Origin: a virus
DNA: 22,519 nucleotides
Virus record (IMG/VR): IMGVR_UViG_3300049812_003812
Coordinates: 1-22,519 of that record
Strand: one strand, 5' to 3'
This document shows positions 4,301-22,519 of the stretch, one piece after another. Under the pieces are notes generated by a model, which was not told where the DNA came from, ran no database searches, and worked only from the letters and a program-made list of their open reading frames with translations. Positions within the stretch are counted from its first letter, which is position 1, and the number at the start of each line of letters is the position of its first letter. Position numbers and translations under genes: made by a program.

Positions 4301-4305
4301 TGAGG

Positions 4306-4328: not shown

Positions 4329-4379
4329 GTTGGCGCATAGCTCCAACATTCCTCCAACACTCTTTCAGGAGTGATCGAA

Positions 4380-4928: not shown

Positions 4929-5015
4929 CCTTGCCGCTTTGCGCGGCGTAAGGCATGAAGCGTGGCGGGCCTCCAACCGGAGCGTCCGCCCGTTTCGCAT
5001 CAGAGGAAAGACCCC

Positions 5016-5594: not shown

Positions 5595-5602
5595 GGTAAG
5601 TT

Positions 5603-6301
5603 ATGAATTTCCTGCAACTGTGCCAGGCTACCGCGCTCGATAGCGGCACGGTTGCAGGCGTTCCCAACTTCACCAGCGTCGAAGGCGCGACCGGGCGCGT
5701 GGCGCAGGTGGTCGGCTGGGTGCGCGATGCGTACATCGACATTCAGAACGAGCGCGGCGATTGGCGCTGGATGCACAAGCGGTTTACCGCCGCGCTCACG
5801 ATCGGCGAGAACCGTTACAGCGCCGCCACTTTGGGCGTTCCGGATCTTCGCCGTTGGCTCGGCGATATTCCTGCGCTCGGCTGGTCCCCGCTCTCGCTCT
5901 ACGAAGTGGGCAAGAAGGAGCAGGAAGGCGCGCTACACCAGATCGAATACATGAGCTGGGTCGAGCGCTATGCACGCGGGCAGCACGATGCGAACAAGCC
6001 GACGGAATGGGCTGTCTCGCCGCAGAACGAGCTGCTGGTGGGGCCGACGCCCGATAAGGCGTACCTGATCGCCGGAGAGTATCGAGCGAAACCGCAGGTT
6101 CTCCAGCTCGACGGTGACGTTCCCGAAATGCCGGAAGACTATCACCGGCTGATTATCGCCGAAGCGATCCGCCTGATGGCGCGCAGCGACGAGGCGTTCA
6201 ACGTCCTCGCCGAAAAGGCGCAAATGTATGACCGGCTGCGACAGCCGCTCGTGAACGATCAGACGCCGGATATAGATTTCGGCGGGGGTAGCCTGGCATG
6301 A
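5603..6301 (+). CDS. Head-tail adaptor protein (SU10-adaptor-like)
   Basis: A 232-aa protein that starts with MNFLQLCQATALDSG, followed by a helix with VVGWVRDAYIDIQNERGDWR and the word WMHKRF. This N-terminal pattern (a helix, a conserved W-V-x-x-A-x-x-x-I, then W-x-W-M) is typical of the adaptor ring proteins of podoviruses, which sit under the portal and connect it to the tail nozzle. The C-terminal region MPEDYHRLIIAEAIRLMARS is the expected long helix followed by a short tail that inserts into the neighbouring ring. The gene follows the head genes and overlaps the next gene by ATGA, consistent with equimolar connector assembly. AGGT upstream of the ATG gives a moderate ribosome-binding site. 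Family assignment is by pattern. Confidence 0.78.
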   Translation: MNFLQLCQATALDSGTVAGVPNFTSVEGATGRVAQVVGWVRDAYIDIQNERGDWRWMHKRFTAALTIGENRYSAATLGVPDLRRWLGDIPALGWSPLSLYEVGKKEQEGALHQIEYMSWVERYARGQHDANKPTEWAVSPQNELLVGPTPDKAYLIAGEYRAKPQVLQLDGDVPEMPEDYHRLIIAEAIRLMARSDEAFNVLAEKAQMYDRLRQPLVNDQTPDIDFGGGSLA

Positions 6302-8355: not shown

Positions 8356-9446
8356 ACGACTTTTACACCGCGCCCGAATCCCCGGTGGATTTCACCACTG
8401 CGCGCTCGGCGCCGGTCCGTGCGCAATACCAAGCGATCGAAGCCGCGTTCGACAAGCTCAAGGGCCGCATCAGCTACGTGATTGCGGTTGGCGTCAACGC
8501 ACTGACCGTCGAGCTGCAATACCCGCCCGAATCCTACACCGACGGGATGCTGATGCACGTCGGCATCACGGCGACCAACACCGGCCCGGCCACGATGAAC
8601 GTCAACGGCCTGGGCGCGGTCCCGATTGTGTCCCGTTCTGGGGCACCTTTGATCGCCGGGGATCTGATGGCCGGTTCGGTCGAAACCCTGTTCTATGTCG
8701 GCGGGCGGTTCGTGATCCGTGCGGTCGCGGGCGCGCAGGGGCCGAAAGGCGAAAAAGGCGATGCGAACGGAATTGTGGGGCCGACCGGGGAGCGTGGACC
8801 GGCAGGGGCCGATGGCGAGGATGGCGAGGACGCATACGAAACTGCGCTCACCTTGGGCTTCGTCGGCACGCGCGCCGAATGGCTGGCCTCGCTGGTCGGC
8901 CCGCAGGGGCCGGAAGGTCCGCAGGGAGTGCAGGGGCCGAAGGGTGACAAGGGCGACAAGGGCGAAACCGGCCCGGCTGGGGCGGACGGCGCGGACGGCG
9001 CGGGTTCGACCTGGGCGGATCTCGGCGGGAAGCCTACCAATCTGGTCGAGCTGGCTGCAATTCCTGACCTTACACAGATCGGCCTCGCGCTTCTTGGTGC
9101 CGCCGATGAAAACGCTCTTGCCCGGCTGGCAGGTGGCGCGGTTCGCGTCGTGGCAGCGAGCTTCGCCAAGGGGGGTGGATATGTGAAGCTCCGTATGCCG
9201 ATCGGCGAGGCCGACACCGATTTCATCGTGCAATGGGGCACGCAATCAATTTCCAGCGGCACGCGCACGATCGCGTACCCCACCGCATTTGCGGCGTGGT
9301 CGATTGCGCTCGTGAGCGGCGGCACACCCCGCGTCGGAAAGGAAGAGCATAGCGCTCTGACCCTTTACACCGGCACAACCTCTTTCACCGTGGATAGCGA
9401 CTTGAACGGCTCGAAGTCGGTCTTCTGGATAGCCTTGGGAGTATAG
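8352..9446 (+). CDS. Collagen-like tail fibre with gp53-type C-terminal domain
   Basis: A 364-aa protein coupled to the previous gene by ATGA. Residues 1-125 form a beta-rich attachment part. Two collagen-like blocks of Gly-X-Y repeats follow at about 127-159 and 183-218, separated by a conserved spacer (AYETALTLGFVGTRAEWLAS) that often interrupts collagen blocks in phage fibres. The last 100 residues (VQWGTQSISSGTRTIAYPTA through SKSVFWIALGV) match the C-terminal knob of gp53-like tail fibre proteins: a QWG start, an aromatic/Pro middle and an iAiG-type end. It likely trimerises through the collagen parts and binds the host surface with the knob. It is the only obvious receptor-binding candidate in the window. 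Confidence 0.85.
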   Translation: MNDFYTAPESPVDFTTARSAPVRAQYQAIEAAFDKLKGRISYVIAVGVNALTVELQYPPESYTDGMLMHVGITATNTGPATMNVNGLGAVPIVSRSGAPLIAGDLMAGSVETLFYVGGRFVIRAVAGAQGPKGEKGDANGIVGPTGERGPAGADGEDGEDAYETALTLGFVGTRAEWLASLVGPQGPEGPQGVQGPKGDKGDKGETGPAGADGADGAGSTWADLGGKPTNLVELAAIPDLTQIGLALLGAADENALARLAGGAVRVVAASFAKGGGYVKLRMPIGEADTDFIVQWGTQSISSGTRTIAYPTAFAAWSIALVSGGTPRVGKEEHSALTLYTGTTSFTVDSDLNGSKSVFWIALGV

Positions 9447-9449
9447 GCC

Positions 9450-9860
9450 GTGGAAACGATCAATTACGCTGCTGTGGTCCCCTGGGTTATCGAAACGATG
9501 ACCCTGTGCTTTCGCGCCGTCGCTGGCGGTCACGCGCTAATCGCGATCCTGATATGGTGGATGTTCCGGGGACAGGCCGAGCGCCCGCCCCATGATCGCC
9601 GGTTGAATGACAGAGCGTGGAATTGGTTCAACACCGGGGCGATCATAGGATCGGTGGGGTTCATCGCGCTCGATGTTCAGTATTTCACCGTCACCGGCAA
9701 AACGATCGGCGATGTGATCGCGATGATTGTGTGGTGGTGCTTCGCCACCGCAGGGACAATCCGCGTTGCCTCGCGTTCCGATCGCCCACGCTTCGTCTAT
9801 CTCGGCACGTCTATCTTCGTGATCGGAATGCCCCTCTATGTCTGGGCCACCGCTGGGTGA
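9450..9860 (+). CDS. Four-segment membrane protein of the lysis cassette
   Basis: The GTG at 9450 is chosen because GGGAG (9437-9441) lies 8 bases upstream and the frame then begins 3 bases after the fibre stop. The 136-aa product has four likely membrane segments: around residues 11-40 (rich in Ile, Leu and Trp), 57-79, 84-107 (VIAMIVWWCFATAGTI) and 114-136. The loops carry basic and acidic clusters (RGQAERPPHDRRLNDR). It stands immediately before the holin candidate and lysozyme, so it may be a second holin, an antiholin or a membrane regulator of lysis timing. The sequence is not recognised as a named family. A superinfection-exclusion protein is another possibility. Confidence 0.72.
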   Translation: METINYAAVVPWVIETMTLCFRAVAGGHALIAILIWWMFRGQAERPPHDRRLNDRAWNWFNTGAIIGSVGFIALDVQYFTVTGKTIGDVIAMIVWWCFATAGTIRVASRSDRPRFVYLGTSIFVIGMPLYVWATAG

Positions 9861-9946
9861 TTAGCCAGTTTCTCGCAGTTGGCACGAACACCGGAGCAAA
9901 GTACGCTGCCCCGGCAGGGATTTTTGCGCTTTTTTCGGAGCTTACT

Positions 9947-10360
9947 GTGGGGGGAATTGACATTGCCATGGTGGGCGCAATCGTAATCGGGCTTGCGTCC
10001 GGTGCGATGATCCGCCTTTCGTTTTTCATTCGCGAACCGGATGCCAAGCAGCGAATCCGCAGCGACATCATGGTGTCGTTCCTGTCCGCAATGGCGAACC
10101 TTATCATCGCTGGTATCATGGTCGCGGCGGGCACCCTGGCGATGCCGGATCTTCCCCTTTGGGGCGCGGCGGGTGTCGGCATGGTGGTCGGTTTCCGCGG
10201 CAACGACAATGTGCCTGCGTTCGCGCGCAAATGGATGAACCTCGAAGTGGAAAAGCCCAACGCCGAGACGATGCGCAAGGGCCTGTATGACGCGACCGAT
10301 CGCCCGAAAGATGGCGCAATGGACGATCTCATTCGGAGAATAGATGATGACGAAGCGTAA
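9947..10360 (+). CDS. Putative holin, three membrane segments
   Basis: Three candidate starts exist in this frame. GTG 9857 overlaps the preceding stop but lacks a ribosome-binding site, and the codons from 9857 to 9946 lack the usual GC3 bias. GTG 9947 has GGAG (9937-9940) at 6-base spacing and is chosen, giving 137 aa. ATG 9968 is a weaker alternative only 7 codons later. The protein has three hydrophobic segments: IAMVGAIVIGLASGAM, ANLIIAGIMVAAGTLAM and WGAAGVGMVVGF. A hydrophilic charged tail ends in DDLIRRIDDDEA. This topology and the position right before an endolysin, overlapping it by 17 bases, fit a class I-type holin that forms inner-membrane holes at lysis. The specific family is not recognised. 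Confidence 0.7.
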   Translation: MGGIDIAMVGAIVIGLASGAMIRLSFFIREPDAKQRIRSDIMVSFLSAMANLIIAGIMVAAGTLAMPDLPLWGAAGVGMVVGFRGNDNVPAFARKWMNLEVEKPNAETMRKGLYDATDRPKDGAMDDLIRRIDDDEA

Positions 10361-10964
10361 AGCGATATTCGACGCGGTGCGCCGCATTCTGGGGCGCGGG
10401 TTCAGTCCCGACGAAGTGGCGCAGCTCGATGCTGCACTGGATAGCGCGATGGTTCCTGACGCCCCTAGCGCGCCCGAACGCCCCGGCTCGCCGCGCAGGG
10501 TAGGGAGTAAAGGCACGGCGCTGATAAAGCGTTTCGAGGGGTGCGCTCGCATTCGGCCCGACGGCAAGGTCGAAGCCTATCCCGACCCCGGCACTGGCGG
10601 CGCACCGTGGACGATCGGCTGGGGGTCAACCGGCCCCGGCATCTCTCCCGGCACGGTATGGACACAGAAGCAATGCGACGACCGCCTAGACGCGGACCTC
10701 GTGCGCTATGCCGAGGGCGTGGCAAAGGCTCTGGGATCATCCATTGCCTCAACCAGCCAGGCGCAGTTCGATGCGCTGGTCAGCTTCCACTACAACACCG
10801 GGGCCATCGGACGCGCCACGCTCACCCGCCTGCATCGCGCGGGGGACTTCAATGCCGCAGCGGCGGAGTTCGGCAGATGGAAACACGCCGGTGGGCGAGT
10901 CCTGCGAGGGCTTGTCGTTCGCCGTGAAGCCGAAGAAGCGCTTTACCGGGAGGGTTCGCGATGA
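10344..10964 (+). CDS. Endolysin: GH24 (T4-type) lysozyme with N-terminal helical extension
   Basis: A 206-aa muramidase that cleaves the N-acetylmuramic acid to N-acetylglucosamine bond of peptidoglycan at the end of infection. The GH24 catalytic signature is clear: Glu65 in IKRFEGCARI, Asp81 in YPDPGTGGAP and Thr90 in WTIGWGST. A substrate-groove helix (SQAQFDALVSFHYNTGAIG) and the end block VLRGLVVRREAEEALY are also typical. Residues 1-50 precede the catalytic domain: a conserved-looking helical segment RKAIFDAVRRILGRGFSPDE, then a Pro-rich linker. No signal peptide or SAR segment is seen, so release should depend on the holin. Two adjacent ATGs (10344, 10347) are possible; GGAG at 10335-10338 serves either. 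It overlaps the holin gene, and the next gene starts at its own ATGA. Confidence 0.93.
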   Translation: MMTKRKAIFDAVRRILGRGFSPDEVAQLDAALDSAMVPDAPSAPERPGSPRRVGSKGTALIKRFEGCARIRPDGKVEAYPDPGTGGAPWTIGWGSTGPGISPGTVWTQKQCDDRLDADLVRYAEGVAKALGSSIASTSQAQFDALVSFHYNTGAIGRATLTRLHRAGDFNAAAAEFGRWKHAGGRVLRGLVVRREAEEALYREGSR

Positions 10965-11290
10965 AACGTATCGGCAATTTCGTGGCGAGCATTGCGCCGA
11001 AGGGATGGATCGCGATCGGATTGGTGGCCGTCCTGATCGCGGGCGTGATCGCCGCCGTAATCATTTCTGGCAACAGCGAGGAACGTCTGGTCGAAACCGC
11101 GCGCGAGAGCGGCGCCGCCGATGCAGTAATCACCGGGCAGAACACAACGCTCGATCAACTTGGAGACGCGAACGATGCCGAAGAGAACCTTGAGGCTGGC
11201 GGCGAGCGTAGTGCTTCTCGCTTTGCTGAGTGCTTGCGCAACAGTCGAAGAAAGCCCGCCTGCGAGCGCTACCGACCGCTCGCGGAGTAG
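10961..11290 (+). CDS. Inner-membrane spanin (Rz-like)
   Basis: A 109-aa protein starting inside the endolysin stop (ATGA). It has a short N-terminal cytoplasmic part, one membrane segment at about residues 16-37 (WIAIGLVAVLIAGVIAAVII), and a periplasmic helical region with TTLDQLGDANDAEENLE. Two cysteines, C91 and C101, near the end could stabilise dimers. This is the layout of an inner-membrane spanin, which spans the periplasm and joins an outer-membrane lipoprotein to fuse the two membranes in the last step of lysis. The partner gene lies largely within it in the +1 frame, the classic Rz/Rz1 arrangement. The protein is short for an Rz but has the expected order of elements. Confidence 0.82.
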   Translation: MKRIGNFVASIAPKGWIAIGLVAVLIAGVIAAVIISGNSEERLVETARESGAADAVITGQNTTLDQLGDANDAEENLEAGGERSASRFAECLRNSRRKPACERYRPLAE

Positions 11291-11441
11291 CTGGTGCCAG
11301 GGCGATAAGGCCATCAGCTACGCCCAGGCCGACGAGGAAAAGCAGGACGATCCCGGCAACCAGCTCGACAGCGAACCAACGGTTGCAGAGATCCAGGCTC
11401 ACAATGCGCGGCTGGCTGCGGCCTGCCGTGAAGAAGAGTGA
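11175..11441 (+). CDS. Outer-membrane spanin lipoprotein (Rz1-like), overlapping Rz
   Basis: An 88-aa lipoprotein. The signal peptide MPKRTLRLAASVVLLALLSA ends at a lipobox LSAC, so Cys21 is the predicted lipidated residue of the mature protein. The ATG at 11175 is chosen because it gives a compact signal peptide and has GGAG (11162-11165) upstream; a TTG at 11160 would only add five residues. The mature part is hydrophilic and ends in a helix with EIQAHNARLAAACREEE. The first 116 bases overlap the inner spanin gene in another frame and the rest extends past it, a staggered version of the Rz/Rz1 nesting. The product should meet the inner spanin across the periplasm and trigger membrane fusion. 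Confidence 0.85.
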   Translation: MPKRTLRLAASVVLLALLSACATVEESPPASATDRSRSSWCQGDKAISYAQADEEKQDDPGNQLDSEPTVAEIQAHNARLAAACREEE

Positions 11442-11474
11442 TTTTCGAGGCCGGTTGATATAGTACGGGCCGAC

Positions 11475-11480
11475 AGGAGG
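11475..11480 (+). promoter_or_regulatory. Consensus Shine-Dalgarno for the first ejection-protein gene
   Basis: AGGAGG, a full consensus, lies 5 bases before the ATG at 11486 in the 44-base gap after the lysis cassette. It is the strongest ribosome-binding site among the non-capsid genes here and suggests independent, efficient translation of the following block. Confidence 0.7.
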
Positions 11481-11485
11481 ACGCG

Positions 11486-12334
11486 ATGGCGTGGACGAAA
11501 GACGGACGTTGGATTCCAGAGGACGATAGCGTTGAAACGCGCCTGACCGGACTCCTCGCCAACGACAGCAAATACATGACCACCGCGCGCGCGGCGGGCA
11601 CGCGCACCGCGGCCCGGCGGGGGCTTCTGAACAGCAGCATCGCGGCGGGTTCGGCGGAGTCCGCTGCCATAGCCGCTGCCGCGCCGATCGCCTCGCAAGA
11701 CGCATCGCAGACTTTCCAGCGCAATCAGGCAACGCTCGAAACCGGGCTGCAATCCGATCTCTCGAAGCAGAGTTTCAACCAGCAGAGCGACCTCAACCGT
11801 CAGCAGAACGAGGCGTCTCTGGCGACGATCGACAAACAGGCCGGGTATCAGCGCGAGCTGGCGCAGATGCAGGAAGCCGCGGCGCTCGAACGGGCGAAGT
11901 TGTCCGAATCCGGCGCGACCGCGCGCCAGCTCGCAGACTTCGACCAGCGCACCGCCGAGCAGATCCGGAACATCGAGAGCCAGACCGCGCAGCAGGAGCG
12001 CCAGCTATCGAGCGCGGAGCGTCAGGCGATGATGGCTGCGGACACGAACATTCTGCAATCGCAAATCTCAGCCAATTCTCAGCTCTCCAGCCAGTACCTT
12101 TCCGCGTTCTCGAACCTTGCGGCGAGCCCGGATATTCCGGCCAACGTCCGCAACGCTTACATCGCGGAGTTCCAGCGCGTGATGAAGCAGGGGCAGGGGC
12201 TTATCAATCTGATGGACAGCGCCGAAGTGACGTGGAGCGGAACGCCCGCGCAGCCCATCGCGCCCTCCAACGCTCCGCCGATTATGAACGGCGGCGGTAA
12301 TGTGAACATGGCCGCGCGAGAGCGCATCGTATGA
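11486..12334 (+). CDS. Putative internal virion (ejection) protein, coiled coil
   Basis: A 282-aa protein. Its N-terminal half contains ARRGLLNSSIAAGSAESAAI followed by AAAAPIASQDASQTFQRN, a motif seen in internal core or ejection-associated proteins of several podoviruses. From about residue 95 to 190 it is a long Gln/Glu/Ala-rich helix with many QQ and ER pairs (TAEQIRNIESQTAQQERQL), likely coiled coil. The C-terminus ends in an unstructured Pro/Asn/Gly-rich tail. A consensus ribosome-binding site precedes the ATG. It opens a run of genes that ends with the giant polyvalent gene, as expected for proteins packed inside the head or ejected into the host. Function is inferred from motif and order; a minor tail protein cannot be excluded. 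Confidence 0.7.
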   Translation: MAWTKDGRWIPEDDSVETRLTGLLANDSKYMTTARAAGTRTAARRGLLNSSIAAGSAESAAIAAAAPIASQDASQTFQRNQATLETGLQSDLSKQSFNQQSDLNRQQNEASLATIDKQAGYQRELAQMQEAAALERAKLSESGATARQLADFDQRTAEQIRNIESQTAQQERQLSSAERQAMMAADTNILQSQISANSQLSSQYLSAFSNLAASPDIPANVRNAYIAEFQRVMKQGQGLINLMDSAEVTWSGTPAQPIAPSNAPPIMNGGGNVNMAARERIV

Positions 12335-12813
12335 TTCGACCGGCCACGCCTGCCGATCTCCCGCGGCTCTACGAGCTGGTGTTGGAAATGCACGCCCGCA
12401 GCGAATATGCGCGGCGCGGCATCGGCGTGGACGAGGCCAGCGCGCGGAGCATCCTCAAGGATGGGGTCTATCGCAACGGCAGAACGAACAACGGCGGCAC
12501 GCTTCTGAATGTGGTCGAGTTCCGGGGCGAGGTCGAAGGCTTCATGCTGGGGCTTCTCCAGCGCGTCTATACGATCGGCGACCGGTTGGAGGCGCAGGAC
12601 TATTGGCTCTTCACCACGAAGCGCTGCCCGCGCGTCGGATGGGGAAAGCTGGTCGACGCCTATCTCGCATGGGCGCTGAATAATCCGAAGGTGGCTGACG
12701 TTCGCGCATCGTGGACGGATGCTGCCGGAGTGGACGGCGAGAAGCTAGGTCGGATATACGAGAAGAAGGGCTTTCGCCGCTGCGGGGCGATCTACACGAG
12801 GGAATCGAAATGA
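12331..12813 (+). CDS. GNAT-fold acetyltransferase-like protein
   Basis: A 160-aa protein starting MIRPATPADLPRLYELVLEM, the usual first strand and helix of GCN5-related N-acetyltransferases. A central strand block (TLLNVVEFRGEVEGFMLGLL) leads to the acetyl-CoA loop region CPRVGWGKLVDAYLAWALNN, which corresponds to motif A (R/Q-x-x-G-x-G/A) with R-V-G-W-G-K. The C-terminal GRIYEKKGFRRCGAIYTR matches the usual Y-x-K-x-G-F end. It is joined to both neighbours by ATGA overlaps within the internal-protein run. GNAT-like proteins occur in this position in some podoviruses (the T7 gp13 family is related), so it may be a structural or virion-packed relative rather than an active enzyme. Substrate is unknown. 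Confidence 0.8.
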   Translation: MIRPATPADLPRLYELVLEMHARSEYARRGIGVDEASARSILKDGVYRNGRTNNGGTLLNVVEFRGEVEGFMLGLLQRVYTIGDRLEAQDYWLFTTKRCPRVGWGKLVDAYLAWALNNPKVADVRASWTDAAGVDGEKLGRIYEKKGFRRCGAIYTRESK

Positions 12814-13616
12814 GCGGCATCGTCAAAGCGGTCGGCAAGGTATTCAAGAAAGTCGTGAAGGTGGTGAAGAAGGTAGCTCTTCCCGCGCTCGCGATCGGCG
12901 CCGTCGTGCTGACCGGCGGCGCGGCGTTGGGCGTGCTTCCTGCCGTTGGCTCTGTCGTCGGAGGATTGGGACTCGGCGCAACGGTCACGAGCGCCTTGAC
13001 GGGCGCGGTCACTATGGCGGGCTACGGCGCGATGGCGGGCGGGCTTCTCGGCGGCAAGAAGGGATTCATGAAAGGCGCGGGCATGGGCGCAGCGGCAGGC
13101 GGGCTTCTCGGCCTGGCCGCGCCGGGCGCGTTGAGTGCGATCCCTGGCGCCATGCCAAGCGCGAATGCCGCCGCTGGCGCAGCCGGTCAGGTGGCGACCG
13201 CTGGTAGCGATCTCGTCGCGGGCGCAACCGGCGTGGCGGATATTCCCGCCGCGATGCAGGTGGTCGACCCTACCGTCGCGGCCATGACGCAGGGCGGCGC
13301 GAGCGCAGCGACCACGGCGGCGACAACCGCTGCGAAGCCGTCCCTTCTCCAAGGGCTTCTTGCCTCGCCCGTCGTGGGGCAGGTAATCGGCGGGATCGGT
13401 TCGGGAATGTCTGCAAACGCAGACGCGAAGGAGCGCAGAGCAGCCGAGGAACAGCGCCGCGCGAATTACGATGTGTCTGGGGGGCCGCTGGCGAACGGGC
13501 TTCTGGCGCCATTCCAGCCTGCCGCCGCTGGCACAGGGCCGACGGACTCGTTCGGGCAGATGGGCCGCTGGTATTACGATCCGAAGCTGGGGCGCCTCGT
13601 GCGCCGTGAGGGGTAA
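12810..13616 (+). CDS. Gly/Ala-rich hydrophobic internal virion protein
   Basis: A 268-aa protein starting at the ATGA that overlaps the previous stop, with GAGGGA a few bases upstream. It opens with a basic amphipathic helix (VKAVGKVFKKVVKVVKKVAL), then has long Gly/Ala/Val-rich hydrophobic stretches (to about residue 115) that could insert into membranes, then an Ala/Thr-rich middle, and a C-terminal tail with an Arg/Glu-rich helix (ADAKERRAAEEQRRANYD) and an aromatic end RWYYDPKLGRLVRR. Proteins of this make-up are common among podovirus ejection proteins that form a conduit through the cell envelope. The assignment is from composition and place in the gene run; the sequence is not matched to a named family. 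Confidence 0.65.
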   Translation: MSGIVKAVGKVFKKVVKVVKKVALPALAIGAVVLTGGAALGVLPAVGSVVGGLGLGATVTSALTGAVTMAGYGAMAGGLLGGKKGFMKGAGMGAAAGGLLGLAAPGALSAIPGAMPSANAAAGAAGQVATAGSDLVAGATGVADIPAAMQVVDPTVAAMTQGGASAATTAATTAAKPSLLQGLLASPVVGQVIGGIGSGMSANADAKERRAAEEQRRANYDVSGGPLANGLLAPFQPAAAGTGPTDSFGQMGRWYYDPKLGRLVRREG

Positions 13617-13624
13617 AGACTGCC

Positions 13625-14218
13625 ATGGGACTGTTGCAACAAAGCTCGAAGACTCTTCCCGGTCTGCCGTCGCCGCCAGAACAGGCGCAGCCCGCCCCCA
13701 CCAAGGTCGAGGACGGCGAGGGGAACGTCACGCCCGAAGAGCAGAAAGCATACGAAGAGTTCGTCGCCAACGCGCTCACGCTGATCCACACCCCGAAGGG
13801 GCCGAAGCCGGAAGTGCTGGAAGCTCTCAAGGTCGGTGGCGAGCAGGCGGAAGGAGCGCCCAACCCGTTCATCCTCGCGCTCGCGCAATCGGCGGTCACT
13901 ATCGTCGGCAAGCTCGATGACAGCGCGGCACAGGCTGGCAAGCAGATTTCCGACGATGTGCTATTCCATGGCGCGCAGGCGGTGATCGAAGAGCTGGTCG
14001 AGGTCGCAGAGGCCGCGCAGATCCACGAGTTCACCGAAGAGGACGTAAACGGCGCGTTCTTCCAGGCGATCGACCTCTACCGCCCGAAGCTGATTGAGAG
14101 CGGGCGCACCACGGAGGAAGAGCTGAAAGGGCTTTTCGCCGAGATCAACGAAGCAGACGCGCAGGGTTCGCTGGGGCAGATGCTACCGGGCCTGCCCGCG
14201 ACCGGCATGGAGGGCTGA
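13625..14218 (+). CDS. Hypothetical internal virion-type protein, 197 aa
   Basis: A 197-aa protein of unknown function in the internal-protein run. Residues 1-38 are Pro/Gln-rich and disordered. Residues about 38-175 look fully helical: EEQKAYEEFVANALTLIHTP, then PFILALAQSAVTIVGKLDDS, then a helix with AVIEELVEVAEAAQIHEF, and later FFQAIDLYRPKLIESGR. It is acidic overall. It begins 8 bases after the previous stop and is separated by one base from the next ATG, so it belongs to the same transcription unit. The helical pattern with a buried hydrophobic central helix suggests a folded assembly protein rather than a linker. No catalytic motif is seen. Confidence 0.68.
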   Translation: MGLLQQSSKTLPGLPSPPEQAQPAPTKVEDGEGNVTPEEQKAYEEFVANALTLIHTPKGPKPEVLEALKVGGEQAEGAPNPFILALAQSAVTIVGKLDDSAAQAGKQISDDVLFHGAQAVIEELVEVAEAAQIHEFTEEDVNGAFFQAIDLYRPKLIESGRTTEEELKGLFAEINEADAQGSLGQMLPGLPATGMEG

Positions 14219-14219
14219 T

Positions 14220-15062
14220 ATGAGCCGCATTCTTGGGGGCCTCCTGCAAGGTCTGAGTTCCGGCCTTGCGATTCAGGCGCAGCAAATGCGCGAGGACTCG
14301 CTCAACGCGCTTCGCCGACAGGACGCGCTCGCCGCAGAGGCGAGGCAGGACCAGCGCACGCTGGATGCGGAGAACCGTGGCGAACAGCGCATGATCCGCG
14401 CGGAAGGGCGCGAGGATGACCGCACGGTCGCCAGCGAGCAGCGAAACGCGGTGCTGAAAACCGGGCTTCTCGCGCTCCAGCACGAGTACGATATGACGGA
14501 GCTGGAAGTTCGCCAGCGGTTTTCGCTCGAAGAGATCGCGGCGCGCGGCGATCAGGATCGGGAAACTGCGACGCACAAGGGCGGGATCGACCGCAGCCTT
14601 GCCACATGGAAGGCCAATTTGGACCGCAGGAACGACGCGGCCTCGCAGAAGCTCCGCGACAAGCTCGATAGCGATGATGTGGACCGCATCATCACCGCCG
14701 AGGATGGGGAAGCGATCATCGTCTATAAAAACGGGGATCGCGAGAAAACCGGCGTCAAGCAGCGCGAGCAATCGTCGGGCGGTTATCCTTCATTGCTCGG
14801 CACCCCGCCAGCGCAAGAGCAAGCTCCAGCCCCGGCACCCAGCCCGACGCCGACGTTCAATGCGAACGATCGCCCGGTTCGCATCGACACGCCCGAAGCC
14901 AAGAGGCAGATCGAGAGCGCGGCATCGCGGCTTATGTCGAGCGGCGAGCTTGGAAAAGGCACGCGCGTTGGAGAAACAGTTACCGCTCCCGCTGGCGTCC
15001 TCGCCGGAAAGCCGGTAACACTCCGCTGGAATGGCAATCGCTGGGAGTTCGTGCCCGGCTGA
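14220..15062 (+). CDS. Hypothetical internal virion-type protein with charged coiled coil
   Basis: A 280-aa protein preceded by GGAGGG (14209-14214) at 5-base spacing. The N-terminal residues 1-20 have a Gly/Leu-rich start (MSRILGGLLQGLSSGLAIQA). Residues 20-155 form an extremely charged helix rich in Arg, Glu, Gln and Asp (RQDQRTLDAENRGEQRMIRA and onward), probably a single alpha helix or coiled coil. A short beta segment (DRIITAEDGEAIIVYKNGDR) and a Pro/Ala linker follow. A C-terminal beta module (VTAPAGVLAGKPVTLRWNGN) closes the protein. It is the last gene before the giant polyvalent gene, so the two products may be packaged or ejected together. Not recognised by sequence. Confidence 0.68.
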   Translation: MSRILGGLLQGLSSGLAIQAQQMREDSLNALRRQDALAAEARQDQRTLDAENRGEQRMIRAEGREDDRTVASEQRNAVLKTGLLALQHEYDMTELEVRQRFSLEEIAARGDQDRETATHKGGIDRSLATWKANLDRRNDAASQKLRDKLDSDDVDRIITAEDGEAIIVYKNGDREKTGVKQREQSSGGYPSLLGTPPAQEQAPAPAPSPTPTFNANDRPVRIDTPEAKRQIESAASRLMSSGELGKGTRVGETVTAPAGVLAGKPVTLRWNGNRWEFVPG

Positions 15063-15075
15063 CGAAAGGGGCGCT

Positions 15076-18000
15076 ATGCCGACTAAGGTTCCTACCGGCT
15101 GGTCAACGCAGGGAAGCAAGAGCAGTAGCGGCGTAAAGACCCCGGATGGCTGGACCTCTTCTGCCCCCACGCCCAACATTCGGCGCGGGCTTCTGTTCGA
15201 CACCCCGGAACCCGGCCCGGCCAAGACGCCCGCACAGCAGACCGAAGAGCGTATCGCGAGCGGCGAGCTTCAAACGGCGCCGCCCCCTGTCGAGCCGAAA
15301 ACGATCGAGGCCGACAATCTCGGCGAGCGAGCTGCGATCAAGTTCTGGCAGCGCATCAAGGGACTCGGCGCAGGCGGCGGGCGCATTGTCGGCGTGGGCC
15401 TCGATGAAGTTGGCGTCGATCCCGATAGCGCTTTCGCGCAATGGTTCAGCCGCCGCACCGAGGCGAACGAGGAATATGCCGGGCGCCGCGTCCAGGGTGA
15501 AACCACCTGGGAGGACGTGAAGGAGCGACCGAGCTTCGCCAACATCACGAAGTACGTGATCGAGCAGGGCGCTTCTTCTGCCGCCGATATGGGAACGCTC
15601 GCCAGCGGCGCGGGTGTCGGCGCGTGGATCGGTATGCAGTCGGGCGGCATTGCGCAGGACCGCGCCGAAAGCGACCTTCGCACCGATGCGGAATTGAAGG
15701 ACGTGGCCGTCGCGCTTCCCGCCGCCGTGGCGAGCGCGGCGCTCGAACGCTTGGGTATGTACGGGATTTTCGGCGCTCCGGCGAAAACCGTGCTGGGCCG
15801 CATGGTGCAATCTGTCGGCACCGAAGCGCTCACCGAAGCGCTGCAAAACCCGCTCGAATATGCAGCCTCCAGTGTCGGCACCGAAAAGGGTTTCGACGCA
15901 ATGGAAGCCATCGACCAAGCCGCCGCGGGCGCGGTGGCCGGTGGCGGCATGGGTGGCGGCATCCGTGGCACGAGCGAGGCGGTGGGTGCCACCGCGCGCG
16001 GCGTGCAGGGCTTCCGCGAAAACCGCGCGCTCGATCGCGAGCTGGCGCGTGATGCCGGTCAGGCGTCGGTTGACGCTTACGATCCCGGCCTGCTGTCCGA
16101 CGCCGATCGTTCGTCGGCGCTTCCGAACGATGCCATCGCGCGCGGCAAGGCGAAGATTGCGGAGCTGCTGGGAGAAAACCCGTTCACCGATCGCACGCCG
16201 ATCGCCCCCGTCGAACCCGCTGCGCCGGTTGAACCCGTCGCGCCGCCCGCGCCCCGCCCGGCGCCCGTAGCGCAGCCGAGCGGTGATGCGCGCTCGCAGT
16301 TCATGGATCGCGTGGGCGGTGTCGAAAGCGGAAACAGCGCCACGGCGAAAAACCCCAATTCGAGCGCGAGCGGCCTGTATCAGTTTACCAAAGGCACATG
16401 GGAAGGGCTGGGCGGCGATTGGTCGAAGCGCTTTGACGTGGGCGAGCAGACGCGCCTGATGAACAAGCTGACCGACCAGAACGAGTCGGCGCTCAAGCGC
16501 GCGGGCGTGAGCCTCACTCCCGGCAATTACTATCTCGCGCACTTCGCCGGTTCGGGTGGCGCGGTCGCGCTGCATAAGGCCGATCCGAACGCGAGCGCGG
16601 AAAGCGTGCTGGGCGAGGCCGTGGTGAAGGCCAATCCGTTCTTGCGCGACATGAGCGCGCAGGAAGTGATCGCGTGGGCCGCTGGCAAAATGGGCGGAGA
16701 GGCTACCGCATCGCCCTCCACCGCGCCGCAGAGCGAGGACACGCCTTCACTGATGGACGAATACGAGTCCGGCCTGGGCGAGCGCGGCGAGACAACGCAG
16801 GATCGCATCGACCGGGTACTTGGCCCCGATGTGGAGCAGCCCGCCAAGGGGCAGCGCGTCGACTTCACCCAGGGCGACAACACGGTCGCGGGCGTGGTCG
16901 AAGAGATCTGGGAGGATGGCGGCGAGAGCGGAGTTCGCATCCGTCTCGATAACGGCGCGGTGGTCAACGAAACGCTGTCCGACGTGCGCGATGCGGGCGC
17001 GCGGATCACGAGTCCGGTTGAGGTCGAGCAGGCGGCGGCGCCAGTGGCGACCGATGTACCGACCAGCGCCGAACCTGTCGCGACCGCAGACACCAGCCCG
17101 GCGCCGAAGCCTGCCGCGAGCGCAAGCCCGGTTGAGGCGCAGACCGCAACCCCGGAGCCGGTTCAACCCGCAGAGACGCCCCAAGCAGAAAGCCCTGCTT
17201 ATACGCTGACCGATAGCGCCAGTGGGAAAGGCTTGGAGCTGCGCGGCGCAACGCCGGAGCAGATTGAGGCAATTCGTGAAGCGGGCGTTCCGATCCCACC
17301 AGCCAAGCGCGATGGCGCGCTCGTGTTCTCGAAGAAGCGCGAAGAGGCTGTTCGTGCTGTGCTGGAAGAGTCGTCCAGCACAGCACGAACAGCCGCGCAG
17401 GAAGAGACGCCTGACTTTGCCGGTGCGGTGGAGAGTGATCTTTCGCGCGATCAGGTCGAGGCCGCAGCCGCGATCTTCGACAGGGCCGAGCAGCGCGAGA
17501 GCGCGCCCGCGCGTGCCAGCGCGCCGGAGGGGGCCGTGACCGATCTTGGACGCGATGATGGCCGATACAGCGTGGCGACCGGCGCCGTTTTGGAAACCGC
17601 GAGCGGCAGGCGTACCGCGCCTGCGCCAAAGTGGGATGCCAGCACACCGCGCAAGCAGACGTTGAGCCTCCAACGCCAGGCCAACTGGCTGATCGAAGAG
17701 GCGCGCAAAGAGGTCGAGGGACAGAGCGGGTTTGCTGCCGACGTTCTGAATCGCCTGTCTGCGAAGAACATGGCTCCGGTTGACTGGTCGCTGGTGAACG
17801 AGACGCTTTTCGGAAGCGAAGCAGGGCCGCAGACGCGCACCGCCCCCGCCGACAATCGCGCTACCCGCGATCGTATGCGTGCCGAAGCAGCGCTACCCGA
17901 AGGCTATCGCATTGCCGATACGTCGAGCGGTTACGTGCTGATGCGTCCCGACAACACAATGGTCGGAGAGAAGCCACTTGCGCCCGGCAACGTCTCACCG

Positions 18001-21000
18001 GAGACGTTCGAGCGCGCGGTGCAGCAGGCCGAGAACATGGCGCAGCGCGACCAGCAGAACCGGGCCGAGCGCCAGCCTGGCGCAGCTCTTCCGAACGCAA
18101 CCGCGCCGGAGCAGGTGCAGGGCGCAAGCGACGAACAGCTCGCCGAGATTGTGCAGGATTACGATTCTGTCCGCTCGTCGCAGGGCGTGGGCGATCAGCA
18201 GGTGACGCACGTATTCGATCCGCCCACGAGGGGCGAGGTCGTTCGCCTTGCGGATAAGGTGAAGGTGTTTCGCGATGGGCGCGGCTGGATGACAGCCGAA
18301 GAGGCCGCAGCGGAGATCGCCGAATGGAAAGAGCGAGCGCGGCAGCAGGGCGGGCCAGGCAGCGCGAACGCCGACAAAGTTGTTCTCTCTCTCTTCGATC
18401 TTTCGGGCGAGTGGTCGCGGCCTTGGGAAGAGGCCGGGTATCAGGTCTATCGGTTCGACATTCAGGACAATGCCGAAACCGGCGACGTGAACAATTTTTC
18501 GACCGAGTTTTTCGGCGATTGGTTCGGCGATTTCGACGGCCAGGACATTTACGCGATCCTCGCCGCCTGCCCTTGCACGGACTTCGCAAGCAGCGGGGCG
18601 CGGCACTTTGCTGCGAAGGACGAAGATGGCCGCACGGTTTCCAGTGTGCGCCTCGTTCAGCAGACCCTCGCGACTATCGAGTATTTCAAGCCTGCCGTGT
18701 GGGCGCTGGAGAACCCGGTGGGCCGTATCGAGAAGCTGGGCGGGCTTCCGCCGTGGCGTCTGTCATTCGATCCCAACCACGTCGGCGAAACCTACACGAA
18801 GAAAACGCTTATCTGGGGCCGGTTCAATGCCGACCTCCCGATCGCGCCGCGCGATCCCGTTGAGGGGTCGAAGATGCACAAGCTCTATGGCGGGAAGAGC
18901 CTCAAGACGAAGAACGCGCGCAGCGTCACGCCCGAAGGCTTCGCCTACAGTTTCTTCGCCGCGAACAACGCGGTCGACCATCCGGCGATGGCTCTCGCCA
19001 ACAAGTTCGATCGGCTTGACCGCGAGCTGATCGAGCGCGCGGTTGACGCGGGCGTCACGCCCGAAGCTATCACCGAAGCGGTGGAGGATCTGTATTACGG
19101 AGAGCTGGATGACGCAGGCGCGAATGATGCGATCCGCACGCTCTTGCCTTCCAGCCCTGGCGACCCGCAGGCTGATATGCTTCGCGCCGCCCAGGACTCC
19201 GGGCGGCTGGAGATCGTGGACGCGCGCACCCAGCGCAGTCGCGACAATGCCGACCGAGCGCTGGCCAGCGCTGATGCGGCCAACGCGCAGCAGGCGGCAG
19301 AGCAATCCGATATTAGCAGGCCGACCGACAAGAAGAACCCCAACCCGTTCGTTCGGAGGGGTGAGCGCTATACCCTGACGGGCGATATTGATTACCTTTC
19401 GGGTGGCAATACCTACGAGGTCGACATTGCCGAGAAGCGTTCGGCGTCGTTCCGCAACGTCGAGACGGATGGGCGATCGAGCCTGAATAATTATGCCATG
19501 CGCGAAGCGCTGGCCGATGGCCGAATGGTGCGCGCCGAAGCGGAGCAGGCGGCAGAAGAGGCGGAGGCCACCCCAGAAAGCGCACCCGCCACGCCCGATT
19601 ACGGCGCAAGCAATCGCCTCGTCTCGCAGGATCGCGCCGCCGAGCTGCGTGCGCGCCTCAAGGAAAAGCTCAACCCTGGCCGTCTGAATGCGGGCATCGA
19701 CCCCGAATTGCTGGCGATCGGGACGGAGCTGGCCGTGTTCCACGTCGAGGCCGGTGCGCGCCGGTTCATCGACTTCGCGAAGGCGATCCGGGCCGACGTG
19801 CGCGCAATGGATCTCGATCCCGATTCGGTGCGCCGTTATCTGCGTGGCTGGTACAACGGCGCGCGCGACTTCATGGAGGACAGCGGTGAGTCCGTCGCAG
19901 GCATGGACACCGCCGACGAAGTAGGCCGCTCCATGCGGACCTATGGCGAATGGGCGACCGACACCGTGCCCGCAGCGGAACCGGCTGCAACGCCCGCTCC
20001 CGTCGCGCCTGTTACCAATGCGCCGCCGCTGGAGGCCGCTTTCGCGCAAGCCTTTGTCGAAGGTCGATCGTTTGCGTCGATCACGCAAGCGCGCGCCTTC
20101 GCCAAGGAAACGACAGGACAGGATTATCGGGCGGGAACCGCCGAAGCGAAAACGCTGGACGAGGCCGTGGAGGCCGCGGTGGTTCGCGCCGCACAGGCGA
20201 TCGTGATCGAGTATCGCGGCGACCCGCAGCAAACTTATGGGCGGCTGGTTGATCTCTATTCTCGCCAGCCCAAGCTCGGCGTTCGCACGTCCACGAGCGT
20301 CAGCCAGCAGGCATATTCGACGCCGGTTCCGCTGGCCTATCTCGCATCACAGCGCGCGGGTATCACGCCGGAGTCCACCGTGTTCGAGCCGAGCGCGGGC
20401 AATGGCGCTTTGCTGATCGCCGCCACGCCGTCGAAAGTAATCGCCAACGAGCTGAACGCGGCGCGCGCGGCGCAGTTGCGCGGCCTCTATCCCAGCGCGA
20501 CCGTGCGCGAGAACGACGCCACCGATTATGCTCCGGCCACGAAGGTTGACGCCGTGATCGCCAACCCGCCGTTCGGCCCGATCAAGGGTGAGAATGGTCA
20601 ATCCATCGTATTCGATGTGGATGGCGAGTATTCAACGCGCGAGATCGACCACGCCATTGCGATGAAAGCGCTCTCGTCCATGAAGGACGATGGCAGCGCG
20701 GTCCTGATCGTGGGCGGATTGAACAAGCTGATTACCGACCCGCAGAAGCGCGCCGATGCCTACAACGGCAAGGCGAAGCGCGAGTTTTACCTCAAGCTCT
20801 ATTCGCAGTACAACGTCACCGATCACTTCACCGTCGCGGGCGAATTGTACGAGCGCCAGGGTGCGGGGTGGCCGGTTGACGTGATCGTTATCCAAGGGCG
20901 CGGAAAGTCCGCGCTTGCGGTCCCCGCGGTGCAAGCGCCGCGTCAATACAGCGATTGGGAATCGCTCACGGAGGCATTGAATGGAAGACCCCGCCAAGAT

Positions 21001-22519
21001 GCTGCGCCAGATCGCGAGCCGAGCCGAAACGATACTGTCGAAGCAGCCCGACCCGAAGCCACTGATGCGCGAAATACTGGCGAGCGCGGAGAGCGCGGGC
21101 CTGTTGGACGCGCCGGGCCCGATACGGACGGAGAACCCGGCCCTGTTCGTGCAGGATCTTCTGACGGACAACCCTCGCGCGCTGGAGTGGATGCAGACGC
21201 AAGAGACGCTGGAGCCGCTGAAAATCGCCGACCAGTTCGAGCTGCTAGACGCGATCCAGTAGAGGGGCAGGAAGGCGCGACACAGATCGCGTACCGCCCT
21301 GGCAGCAAGGCGAAGGCGATGGATACGCTGGTTCCGGTCAACATGGCGGCATCCATTGATGACGCGCTCGCCACGCTGGCCTCTGTTCAAGGCGACATTG
21401 ACGCTTTTGTCGCTGACCGCCTGGGCTATCCCGTTGCGGACCTGTCCGATTATTACGGCGCCGAGCAGATCGACGCGCTCGCGCTCGCGATCGACAATAT
21501 GGAGCGCGGCAGCGGCTTCATCATTGGCGACCAGACCGGGATCGGGAAGGGCCGCGTGGTTGCGGGTGTGATCCGCTACGCGATCCGCACGAATCGCAAT
21601 CCGATCTTCGTCACCGAAAAGCCGAACCTCTACCGCGATATGTTCCGCGATATGGCCGACATTGGCCTGCCCGCGATGCTGGGCCGCGAGATCAATGTCG
21701 TGATGACCAACGCGAACGAGAAGGTTCCGCTGGACGAAGACGGCGAAGCGTTCCTGACAAGCCCGTCGGCGAAGAAGCACAACGATATGCTTGCCAAGCT
21801 CGCGCGCGGCGGCGACCTGAAAGCCGAGGGCATCGACGCGCTCTTTACGACATACGCGCAGATGCAGACCGTGGCGGGCAAGGAAACCGTGCGCCAACAG
21901 GTTCTCGAAAGCCTGGCTGGTGGCGGCATCATCATCATGGATGAAAGCCACAACGCGGGTGGGCAGGGTCCGGCCATGTTCGAGGACAAGAACGCGCCCC
22001 GCAGCCGGGCCAAGTTCGCGCGAGATCTGGTCGAGAAGGCGCACGGCGTTTTCTATTCGTCGGCTACCTACGCCAAGCGCCCCGACGTGATGGATCTCTA
22101 TGCCGCGACCGATATGCGAATGGCGGTGCCGGAGATCGACAAGCTGGGCGAGACGATCGCCAAGGGCGGCGTGCCGATGCAGCAGGTGGTGGCCTCGATG
22201 CTGGCCCGCTCTGGTCAGTACGTGCGCCGCGAGCGCAGTTTCGACGGGATCGCCTACAATACCCCGTCGGTCGAGATCGACCGGGCGCAGTACGACGCGA
22301 CCGCCAGCATCCTCGCGGCTATTCAGGATTTCAGCGAAACGTATGTGGGCGAAGCGACGAAGGCGATCGACAAGCGCCTGCGCGCGGAAGGCCGGTCAAT
22401 CAATGCGGACAACGCTACCGGCAGAACCGGCGCCACATCGACCAATTTCACCGCGATCATGCACAACGTCGTGGATCAGATGCTTCTCGCATTCAAATCC
22501 GGCCCCTCGGCTGACCGGT
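15076..22519 (+). CDS. Giant polyvalent protein: transglycosylase, C5- and N6-methyltransferase-like domains, DarB/Sbno-like helicase (3' end outside window)
   Basis: The frame stays open for 2481 codons to the window end. The ATG follows AAGGGG (15066-15071). Domains in order: residues 1-400 contain Gly/Ala-rich hydrophobic segments (165-195, 216-290); 402-545 is a lytic-transglycosylase domain with Glu417 in GVESGN and SSASGLYQF; 592-641 is SH3-like; 655-705 is a Pro/Ala linker; 1096-1310 resembles a cytosine-C5 methyltransferase (C1165-P1166-C1167; ENPVG from 1212); 1515-1635 is a helical domain (GIDPELLAIGTELAVFHVEA) common in polyvalent phage proteins; 1736-1950 is a SAM methyltransferase (FEPSAGNG 1770-1777, NPPFGP 1830-1835); from about 2080 an SF2 helicase of the Strawberry-notch/DarB type begins (GDQTGIGKGR 2151-2160, DESH 2289-2292, SSAT 2328-2331). 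It likely travels in the virion, opens peptidoglycan, and protects or remodels entering DNA. The enzymatic domains are recognised; virion delivery and antirestriction are inferred. Codon bias is lost at residues 1969-2063, where a second ORF overlaps. Confidence 0.88.
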   Translation, partial: MPTKVPTGWSTQGSKSSSGVKTPDGWTSSAPTPNIRRGLLFDTPEPGPAKTPAQQTEERIASGELQTAPPPVEPKTIEADNLGERAAIKFWQRIKGLGAGGGRIVGVGLDEVGVDPDSAFAQWFSRRTEANEEYAGRRVQGETTWEDVKERPSFANITKYVIEQGASSAADMGTLASGAGVGAWIGMQSGGIAQDRAESDLRTDAELKDVAVALPAAVASAALERLGMYGIFGAPAKTVLGRMVQSVGTEALTEALQNPLEYAASSVGTEKGFDAMEAIDQAAAGAVAGGGMGGGIRGTSEAVGATARGVQGFRENRALDRELARDAGQASVDAYDPGLLSDADRSSALPNDAIARGKAKIAELLGENPFTDRTPIAPVEPAAPVEPVAPPAPRPAPVAQPSGDARSQFMDRVGGVESGNSATAKNPNSSASGLYQFTKGTWEGLGGDWSKRFDVGEQTRLMNKLTDQNESALKRAGVSLTPGNYYLAHFAGSGGAVALHKADPNASAESVLGEAVVKANPFLRDMSAQEVIAWAAGKMGGEATASPSTAPQSEDTPSLMDEYESGLGERGETTQDRIDRVLGPDVEQPAKGQRVDFTQGDNTVAGVVEEIWEDGGESGVRIRLDNGAVVNETLSDVRDAGARITSPVEVEQAAAPVATDVPTSAEPVATADTSPAPKPAASASPVEAQTATPEPVQPAETPQAESPAYTLTDSASGKGLELRGATPEQIEAIREAGVPIPPAKRDGALVFSKKREEAVRAVLEESSSTARTAAQEETPDFAGAVESDLSRDQVEAAAAIFDRAEQRESAPARASAPEGAVTDLGRDDGRYSVATGAVLETASGRRTAPAPKWDASTPRKQTLSLQRQANWLIEEARKEVEGQSGFAADVLNRLSAKNMAPVDWSLVNETLFGSEAGPQTRTAPADNRATRDRMRAEAALPEGYRIADTSSGYVLMRPDNTMVGEKPLAPGNVSPETFERAVQQAENMAQRDQQNRAERQPGAALPNATAPEQVQGASDEQLAEIVQDYDSVRSSQGVGDQQVTHVFDPPTRGEVVRLADKVKVFRDGRGWMTAEEAAAEIAEWKERARQQGGPGSANADKVVLSLFDLSGEWSRPWEEAGYQVYRFDIQDNAETGDVNNFSTEFFGDWFGDFDGQDIYAILAACPCTDFASSGARHFAAKDEDGRTVSSVRLVQQTLATIEYFKPAVWALENPVGRIEKLGGLPPWRLSFDPNHVGETYTKKTLIWGRFNADLPIAPRDPVEGSKMHKLYGGKSLKTKNARSVTPEGFAYSFFAANNAVDHPAMALANKFDRLDRELIERAVDAGVTPEAITEAVEDLYYGELDDAGANDAIRTLLPSSPGDPQADMLRAAQDSGRLEIVDARTQRSRDNADRALASADAANAQQAAEQSDISRPTDKKNPNPFVRRGERYTLTGDIDYLSGGNTYEVDIAEKRSASFRNVETDGRSSLNNYAMREALADGRMVRAEAEQAAEEAEATPESAPATPDYGASNRLVSQDRAAELRARLKEKLNPGRLNAGIDPELLAIGTELAVFHVEAGARRFIDFAKAIRADVRAMDLDPDSVRRYLRGWYNGARDFMEDSGESVAGMDTADEVGRSMRTYGEWATDTVPAAEPAATPAPVAPVTNAPPLEAAFAQAFVEGRSFASITQARAFAKETTGQDYRAGTAEAKTLDEAVEAAVVRAAQAIVIEYRGDPQQTYGRLVDLYSRQPKLGVRTSTSVSQQAYSTPVPLAYLASQRAGITPESTVFEPSAGNGALLIAATPSKVIANELNAARAAQLRGLYPSATVRENDATDYAPATKVDAVIANPPFGPIKGENGQSIVFDVDGEYSTREIDHAIAMKALSSMKDDGSAVLIVGGLNKLITDPQKRADAYNGKAKREFYLKLYSQYNVTDHFTVAGELYERQGAGWPVDVIVIQGRGKSALAVPAVQAPRQYSDWESLTEALNGRPRQDAAPDREPSRNDTVEAARPEATDARNTGERGERGPVGRAGPDTDGEPGPVRAGSSDGQPSRAGVDADARDAGAAENRRPVRAARRDPVEGQEGATQIAYRPGSKAKAMDTLVPVNMAASIDDALATLASVQGDIDAFVADRLGYPVADLSDYYGAEQIDALALAIDNMERGSGFIIGDQTGIGKGRVVAGVIRYAIRTNRNPIFVTEKPNLYRDMFRDMADIGLPAMLGREINVVMTNANEKVPLDEDGEAFLTSPSAKKHNDMLAKLARGGDLKAEGIDALFTTYAQMQTVAGKETVRQQVLESLAGGGIIIMDESHNAGGQGPAMFEDKNAPRSRAKFARDLVEKAHGVFYSSATYAKRPDVMDLYAATDMRMAVPEIDKLGETIAKGGVPMQQVVASMLARSGQYVRRERSFDGIAYNTPSVEIDRAQYDATASILAAIQDFSETYVGEATKAIDKRLRAEGRSINADNATGRTGATSTNFTAIMHNVVDQMLLAFKSGPSADR
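17346..17394. repeat. Perfect 21-bp inverted repeat with 7-nt loop inside the giant gene
   Basis: The left arm (17346-17366) and right arm (17374-17394) are exact reverse complements over 21 bases, with AGAGTCG between them. It lies in coding sequence at residues 757-773, in a region joining the SH3-like part to later domains. It would form a very stable hairpin in mRNA or a cruciform in DNA. No T-tract follows, so it is not an intrinsic terminator. Confidence 0.95.
20970..20974 (+). promoter_or_regulatory. Shine-Dalgarno for the nested ORF at 20981
   Basis: GGAGG lies 6 bases before the ATG at 20981, an ideal spacing, although it is inside the giant gene's coding sequence. It supports internal translation initiation in the second frame. 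Confidence 0.6.
20981..21262 (+). CDS. Nested 93-aa ORF in the +1 frame of the giant gene
   Basis: This ATG-to-TAG ORF lies wholly inside the giant gene in another frame. By hand count 79 of its 93 sense codons (about 85%) end in G or C, like flanking true coding sequence, while the overlapping giant-frame codons fall to 37 of 93 (about 40%). The product looks like a folded, acidic, mainly helical protein: MEDPAKMLRQIASRAETILS, then a helix PLMREILASAESAGLL, then VQDLLTDNPRALEWMQTQ and a final ADQFELLDAIQ. By contrast the giant frame here reads as a Gly/Arg/Asp/Ala/Pro linker without aromatic residues. A GGAGG site precedes the ATG. No family is recognised. The alternative is two compensating frameshifts, by mutation or assembly error, that would make this segment part of the giant protein. 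Confidence 0.6.
   Translation: MEDPAKMLRQIASRAETILSKQPDPKPLMREILASAESAGLLDAPGPIRTENPALFVQDLLTDNPRALEWMQTQETLEPLKIADQFELLDAIQ

Follow-up and report, generated by a model that had tools for sequence, protein, structure and literature searches.

Long overlapping genes are thought to be rare in prokaryotes and in large DNA phages, and gene finders suppress them. Known cases include comS of Bacillus subtilis, a small out-of-frame gene within the giant multidomain srfA that encodes a regulatory peptide in a single lineage, and the surface gene of Hepatitis B virus, which overprints the polymerase spacer, i.e. a constrained protein on a tolerant spacer of a multidomain enzyme. Internal initiation inside cas8/cas10d gives Cas11, a small partner made from the large-subunit gene.

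The DarB-like polyvalent proteins of phages include a 'DNA methylase-helicase dyad', as described by Iyer et al. (2017, PMC5512222), and DarB of phage P1 is described as packaged and co-ejected with the DNA (PMC12810830). Here we analyse a 22,519-base virus fragment from IMG/VR (the window, i.e. the whole stretch of DNA that was analysed), in which positions 20981-21262 are very likely a real gene nested in the +1 frame of a giant DarB-like gene, with a product that is predicted to fold, would be made from its own start and possibly acts as a partner of the enzyme.

The giant DarB-like gene and the reading frame within it

The window reads as a phage fragment of 22.5 kb, and the virion gene cluster, the giant ORF with its parts and the nested gene lie on the plus strand. 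A cluster of virion genes (90-15062) encodes a portal of the SU10 type, a major head protein, a lysozyme, an acetyltransferase and others; a protein with collagen-like G-x-y repeats is found among them at 8352-9446. The giant ORF (15031-22518, 2496 aa) is open at the 3' end of the window. Serratia phage Parlo shares the order of acetyltransferase, virion proteins and DarB-like giant, and by this gene order the window is probably a podovirus of the wider Parlo-like kind. The virion-gene neighbourhood and the behaviour of P1 DarB suggest that the giant protein may be packaged in the virion and ejected.

The giant protein comprises a transglycosylase-like part (16294-16638, approximately residues 422-536; phrog_22520 and phrog_11561, with PF06737 below the cut-off), a C5-cytosine methyltransferase-like part (18367-18987, residues 1113-1319; phrog_757, E=1.2e-40), a DarB-like part (19375-20103, residues 1449-1691; phrog_10089, E=2e-38), an N6-adenine methyltransferase core (20275-20715, residues 1749-1895; phrog_9133 and phrog_3820, with a sub-threshold match to Pfam N6_Mtase) and an AAA_34 helicase of the strawberry-notch type (21502-22293, residues 2158-2421; PF13872, E=7e-24). 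An adenine methyltransferase is thus followed by a helicase within a single ORF (AAA_34; phrog_10089, phrog_9133, phrog_3820), as expected of a DarB-like polyvalent gene.

The nested ORF (20981-21262) maps to the linker between the N6-methyltransferase and the AAA_34 helicase. It lies entirely within the giant ORF, in the +1 frame and with its own ATG and TAG, and encodes 93 amino acids (10.4 kDa, pI 4.4). A Shine-Dalgarno (SD) sequence GGAGG (20970-20974) precedes the ATG with a spacing of 6 at a position that is conserved among relatives, and a TGA in the nested frame (20978-20980) directly abuts the ATG and blocks same-frame read-in from upstream. The original prediction, made from the letters of the window, had described a 93-codon ATG-to-TAG frame with GGAGG 6 nt before its start, and its coordinates are exact.

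The base composition of this region follows the nested frame. Read in the ORF frame, the bases of the ORF have a GC content at third codon positions (GC3) of 0.849; read in the giant frame they have 0.398, compared to 0.767 for the giant gene elsewhere, and downstream of the ORF the signal reverts to the giant frame. By codon position the ORF frame has a GC content of 0.69/0.40/0.85, so that the giant third position amounts to 0.40 over the ORF. At the ORF the GC3 difference is 0.452; across the 2196 other 93-codon windows of this gene, which overlap one another, it never exceeds 0.129. Thus, the originally reported jump in GC3 between about 85% and about 40%, and back, is reproduced. The same holds for the predicted contrast between a hydrophobic pattern in the second-frame product and a linker-like giant protein: the overlaid linker (20983-21300) is of low complexity and at the ORF consists to 93% of A/G/P/R/D/E/S/T/N/Q/K with 7% hydrophobic residues, whereas the ORF product has 30%. 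ORF length, in contrast, was rejected as evidence for the window gene. A +1 run as long or longer occurs in 71% of synonymous shuffles of the giant codons in the window (p 0.71), and since this length is unremarkable the claim of a nested gene is borne by composition and conservation. Another nested candidate of the window, located in the LPD-methyltransferase linker (17251 region), was rejected owing to weak composition and arginine-rich products.

Relatives, start signals and selection

Searches with the 93-aa product alone gave no match in viral contigs, in phages (tblastn), in Pfam or in PHROGs, and a distant blastn of the ORF DNA against phages gave none either. The search against phage proteins that had been proposed with the prediction therefore yielded no direct match, and relatives surfaced via the flanks. 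They were gathered with the flanking methyltransferase and helicase and then with their alignment A1 (loci L002-L010 and L013-L172), and the set includes the best 80 of 135 relatives and the best 80 of 329. Both flanks are present in 168 of 172 loci; the other 4 were dropped before counting. A profile-matched ORF is found in the linker of 141 of the 168 loci, in the +1 frame in all of them and nowhere else in the examined DNA. Nearly all relatives have a giant frame without stops throughout the linker. As training of the linker-ORF profiles behind this count had used these very loci, two held-out profiles were compared. The first, of the short type and built without the window, L013 and L014, matches the window ORF with E=6.2e-9 over residues 5-89. 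The second, derived from 39 viral long-type ORFs, recovers an ORF in 37 of 77 genome loci; every match is in the +1 frame and falls in a linker. These two tests remove the objection of training on the same loci.

The ORFs fall into a short type of approximately 92-111 aa, which includes the window, and a long type of about 125-170 aa in most members; the long type has a W-x-P module at its N-terminus and an L-x-x-W motif at its C-terminus. Between the two types, hhalign finds a relationship that spans 70 columns (probability 94.4, P 8.5e-8). For the 127-ORF alignment 3 insert-type linkers and runs of fewer than 85 codons were dropped first, and the sets of 96-97 members were obtained by removing near-duplicates at 85% identity. 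According to the record titles the loci originate from Cyanobacteriota, Pseudomonadota, Thermodesulfobacteriota, Myxococcota and Bacteroidota, among others, and from many viral contigs.

No profile match was obtained for 27 of the 168 loci. Eight of these harbour a divergent +1 ORF of at least 106 codons (L082, L099, L105, L109, L111, L113, L144, L156), and the others, without such an ORF, include Bacteroidota-type loci whose linkers measure 135-234 nt, L012, L117, L143, L145, L164, L167 and L104. The short-linker Bacteroidota and Acinetobacter phage MD-2021a have no +1 ORF in the linker. The linker of L117 contains an 82-codon run in the +2 frame (p 0.003 in synonymous shuffles, as one of 145 linkers tested). 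Bacteroidales loci and phage BS-TP4 (L153, L163, L165, L168, L169 and L011) carry a +1 ORF in the same linker without an SD; a comparison of these ORFs with the main family gave an hhalign probability of 1.3%, which does not support homology. SD use is weak in this phylum, consistent with SD-less ORFs there.

In a tree of the methyltransferase-helicase with 111 rows, presence and absence of the ORF cost 2 changes. The main clade has the +1 ORF in 90 of 90 rows, including L104, which was scored as ORF-bearing by run length alone and whose product is unrecognisable by profile. A search of viral contigs with the long-type ORF profile A5 placed 48 of 48 matches inside a giant open frame. Matches in cyanobacterial plasmids come from five records, among them pAQ6 of Picosynechococcus PCC 7002, and each lies under a helicase CDS or a strawberry-notch CDS. 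In pAQ6 (L241) the nested ORF falls within SYNPCC7002_RS15125; a toxin gene of the RelE/ParE family, together with a small gene, occupies 2638-3220, between the N-6 methylase gene and the ORF-bearing strawberry-notch gene. No nested gene is among the listed features of pAQ6, of Leptolyngbya NIES-3755 (partial table) or of BS-TP4. The VESPA proteogenomics study of PCC 7002 is described as a six-frame search with plasmids included (PMC3364912). Among 292 genomes from the phylum of L119 (titled Nodosilinea nodulosa, a cyanobacterium), 5 matched: L189-L191 are nested in a long open frame, and in L192 and L178 the match is on the other strand. No standalone copy of the ORF was seen in the viral contigs, 21 genomes or records, the 292 genomes, plasmids and phages.

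We then characterized the start region in the non-Bacteroidales loci. The start was set at the foremost ATG of every +1 run, irrespective of SD, and other +1-frame ATGs from the same genes served as controls. An SD match of at least 5 nt precedes the start in 88 of 121 loci, compared to 78 of 2099 control ATGs. When the giant codons are recoded synonymously, an SD is expected in 56 of 121 loci, as opposed to 96 of 121 observed at the chosen start, and giant-frame residues thus account for part of the SD signal. In 89 of the 121 loci the ORF frame is closed by a stop no more than 5 codons ahead of the start, and in 44 of them this stop abuts the start codon.

For the comparison of both frames across homologues that had been suggested with the prediction, 26 disjoint pairs of relatives with 75.1-94.3% nucleotide identity are available. 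Over the overlap the ORF frame has a pN/pS of 0.39 and the giant frame one of 1.51, and ORF third positions vary most in 26 of 26 pairs. The window has no kin at 75-98.5% identity and is not among the pairs, so that the selection result rests on its relatives. In the helicase, taken as a control, the giant frame has a ratio of 0.16 and the +1 frame one of 1.79 (195 pooled, non-independent pairs). Conserved giant-frame residues over an unconstrained second frame had been named as the observation that would speak against a gene here, and the relatives show the reverse. With constraint in the ORF frame and a giant-frame ratio of 1.51, the overlap behaves as coding sequence of the ORF, and the giant frame there is only kept open. 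The window itself, when aligned with L013, gives a Z of 15.0 for the ORF frame and 1.6 for the giant frame; with L014 the values are 11.4 and 2.3, respectively. The ORF frame aligns better than the giant frame in 158 of 190 short-type pairs.

Predicted fold, possible role and alternatives

AlphaFold predicts a well-defined fold for the window product with a pLDDT of 89.9 and a pTM of 0.80, based on 20 own-locus sequences, and with five helices (4-20, 26-38, 53-62, 65-73 and 85-92). For the long-type product of L051 the values are 95.5 and 0.88 (58 sequences). Neither the short nor the long model has a match in BFVD at E<=0.001, and the long model reaches a best Z of 2.5 in the PDB; such absence of a fold match does not amount to a new fold. 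Pfam, PHROGs, NCBIfam and PADLOC show no consistent family among 96 members, with at most 2 members per family, and a PurK-like NCBIfam match (E 1.2e-5) in 1 of the 96 is regarded as chance. Thus, site, frame, start and selection are conserved, the fold is confidently predicted, and the real small gene in the second frame that had been envisaged from the sequence is upheld by homologous ORFs that share site and frame, a conserved ATG and SD, selection confined to the ORF frame and the confident fold.

The opposite proposal, in which the segment belongs to the giant protein and is set off by two frameshifts, fails on the giant frame, which is open in nearly all relatives, the ORF's own start and stop and the upstream stops in 89 of 121 loci. 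A sequencing or assembly error of this kind, i.e. two indels that misframe the segment, would explain why the composition changes frame and then returns; it is refuted by the relatives, where the identical arrangement recurs in 141 of 168 loci, always in +1, and also in records of genomes and plasmids, pAQ6 of PCC 7002 among them, so that we regard its probability as negligible. We attach just as little weight to a compositional accident in an unconstrained GC-rich linker. The non-significant length of the window ORF, matched in 71% of shuffles, would fit such an accident; it is refuted by the conservation of ORF-frame amino acids across loci, by pN/pS and by the held-out profile, and long +1 ORFs occur in AT-richer loci too. 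Programmed frameshifting could fuse the ORF to the methyltransferase and give a short alternative product with no separate protein. The ORF does directly follow the methyltransferase, and in phage PBC5 a long annotated CDS terminates, in frame, with another nested ORF. The ORF-frame stops close upstream of the start (89 of 121 loci; abutting in 44 and in the window) argue against such read-in, as do the conserved ATG and SD, and frameshifting appears very improbable.

For the nested gene, we infer translation, a binding partner and a role as follows. Ribosomes would initiate at the nested ATG behind its own SD on the mRNA of the giant gene, and this internal initiation would yield a separate, acidic and mostly helical protein of 10.4 kDa, possibly in amounts exceeding the giant protein. 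The giant protein's version of the same bases may be a mere flexible tether from methyltransferase to helicase, in which case almost any residues would be tolerated there. As the second codon position of the ORF, which sets hydrophobicity, falls on the giant wobble position, +1 would be a cheap frame. The partner protein would be made beside the methyltransferase-helicase and inherited only with that enzyme. This inheritance, for which the 48 of 48 viral matches and the 2 changes on the tree speak, together with the position directly before the helicase, makes a dedicated partner the likeliest role, and the packaging and co-ejection of P1 DarB make the need for such a partner plausible. We therefore tentatively propose a separately made partner of the surrounding methyltransferase-helicase, be it a chaperone, an inhibitor or a co-injected or co-packaged subunit. 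Obligatory co-occurrence would be equally expected if the ORF were simply unable to leave its host gene.

A serious rival is a real protein that is independent of the enzyme, namely an anti-defence or host-takeover effector riding on the tolerant linker. Polyvalent genes are described as anti-defence elements (PMC5512222), and sequence-unrelated nested ORFs in other DarB-like linkers look as if such linkers host varied passengers. The window family, however, is one lineage at one site over a deep tree, the ORF searches match only such giant genes, unlike what is expected of movable effectors, and no consistent PADLOC family is matched; an independent effector is conceivable but somewhat doubtful. 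As to origin, the nested gene may or may not be a small gene trapped by read-through fusion of two genes, as the original prediction had it; no relatives of the window family were seen with the three parts as separate genes.

Nested frames in other DarB-like genes and known systems

Further +1 ORFs are found in DarB-like genes of cultured phages, at linkers that precede the methyltransferase or the helicase. Five Burkholderia Lessievirus genes (BcepIL02, BcepMigl, CSP3, DC1 and JC1; L244 10374-10697, L251, L252, L253 and L254) share a conserved +1 ORF of 107-112 aa preceded by AAGGAGGT or AAGGAG. Serratia phage Parlo (L243, 10467-10856) and Klebsiella phage ZX1 (L248, 6488-6877) share a conserved 129-aa +1 ORF that abuts the helicase and has an SD and a GC3 switch. 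A third family (MNLNNW...HWK; L245 10332-10640, L246 10920-11318, L249, L250 6425-6751 and L247 10340-10648) comprises Atu_ph08, Mwe-JY07, LASTA, SopranoGao and PBC5, phages of Agrobacterium, Microcystis, Klebsiella and Sinorhizobium. It corresponds to the C-terminus of phrog_938, and in 21 of 21 phage records that match one of its ORFs the match sits beneath a long CDS, for which DarB-like or DNA methylase is the usual name. The cultured-phage ORFs have a GC3 of 0.71-0.92 and an SD, and in 7 pairs the ORF-frame ratio is 0.11-0.71 compared to 0.63-2.09 in the giant frame, lower for the ORF in 7 of 7. Homology of the window family to the HWKEFLP-type nested ORFs is not supported (hhalign 0.2%, one group compared), and P1 darB has no comparable nested ORF.

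In Sinorhizobium phage PBC5 (L247) the giant gene is split into CDSs 4106-10648 and 12280-19854, and at the split the annotated CDS gp22 runs in frame into the nested-type ORF and ends with it. It is possible that this split pictures the unfused state, or that it reflects an old sequencing slip. A possible further nested ORF lies late in the giants of L247 (16898-17101) and L245 (approximately 16959-17129), with 45% identity.

Taken together, it is fairly likely that the disordered linkers of DarB-like genes hide folded +1 proteins of several unrelated families, as long-kept partners or regulators of the adjoining module; annotation misses such genes because one long ORF covers them. We suggest the disordered linkers of giant phage proteins as a hunting ground for hidden genes. 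The window family is deeply conserved and has a cultured carrier in Picosynechococcus PCC 7002 with plasmid pAQ6; Bacteroides phage BS-TP4 is a cultured system with an ORF at the corresponding site, and nested genes of a related type are available in cultured Burkholderia, Klebsiella and Serratia phages. The nested protein is likely to be a component so far missing from the methyltransferase-helicase systems by which injected DNA is protected. Nested genes are already a known kind; the protein family, its site and its recurrence in polyvalent genes appear to be new, as no description of such nested genes was found in the open-access literature searched or in family libraries.

The nested ORFs of cultured DarB-like phages (Lessievirus, Parlo and the Atu_ph08/Mwe-JY07/LASTA groups) resemble the window in the +1 frame, the SD, the GC3 switch and the location in a linker before the methyltransferase or helicase. 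The giant host gene itself is like the DarB-like dyad of PMC5512222, with an adenine methyltransferase beside a helicase and other phage domains; that article treats a single polypeptide, the word 'overlap' occurs 0 times in its main text, and the nested gene described here is additional.

Compared to other nested genes, Cas11 is in frame with its host gene whereas the window ORF is in another frame. The Hepatitis B virus overprint differs in that the proteins are unrelated and the virus is of another type. Unlike comS within srfA, the nested family described here encodes a folded protein, spans several phyla and occupies an inter-domain linker.
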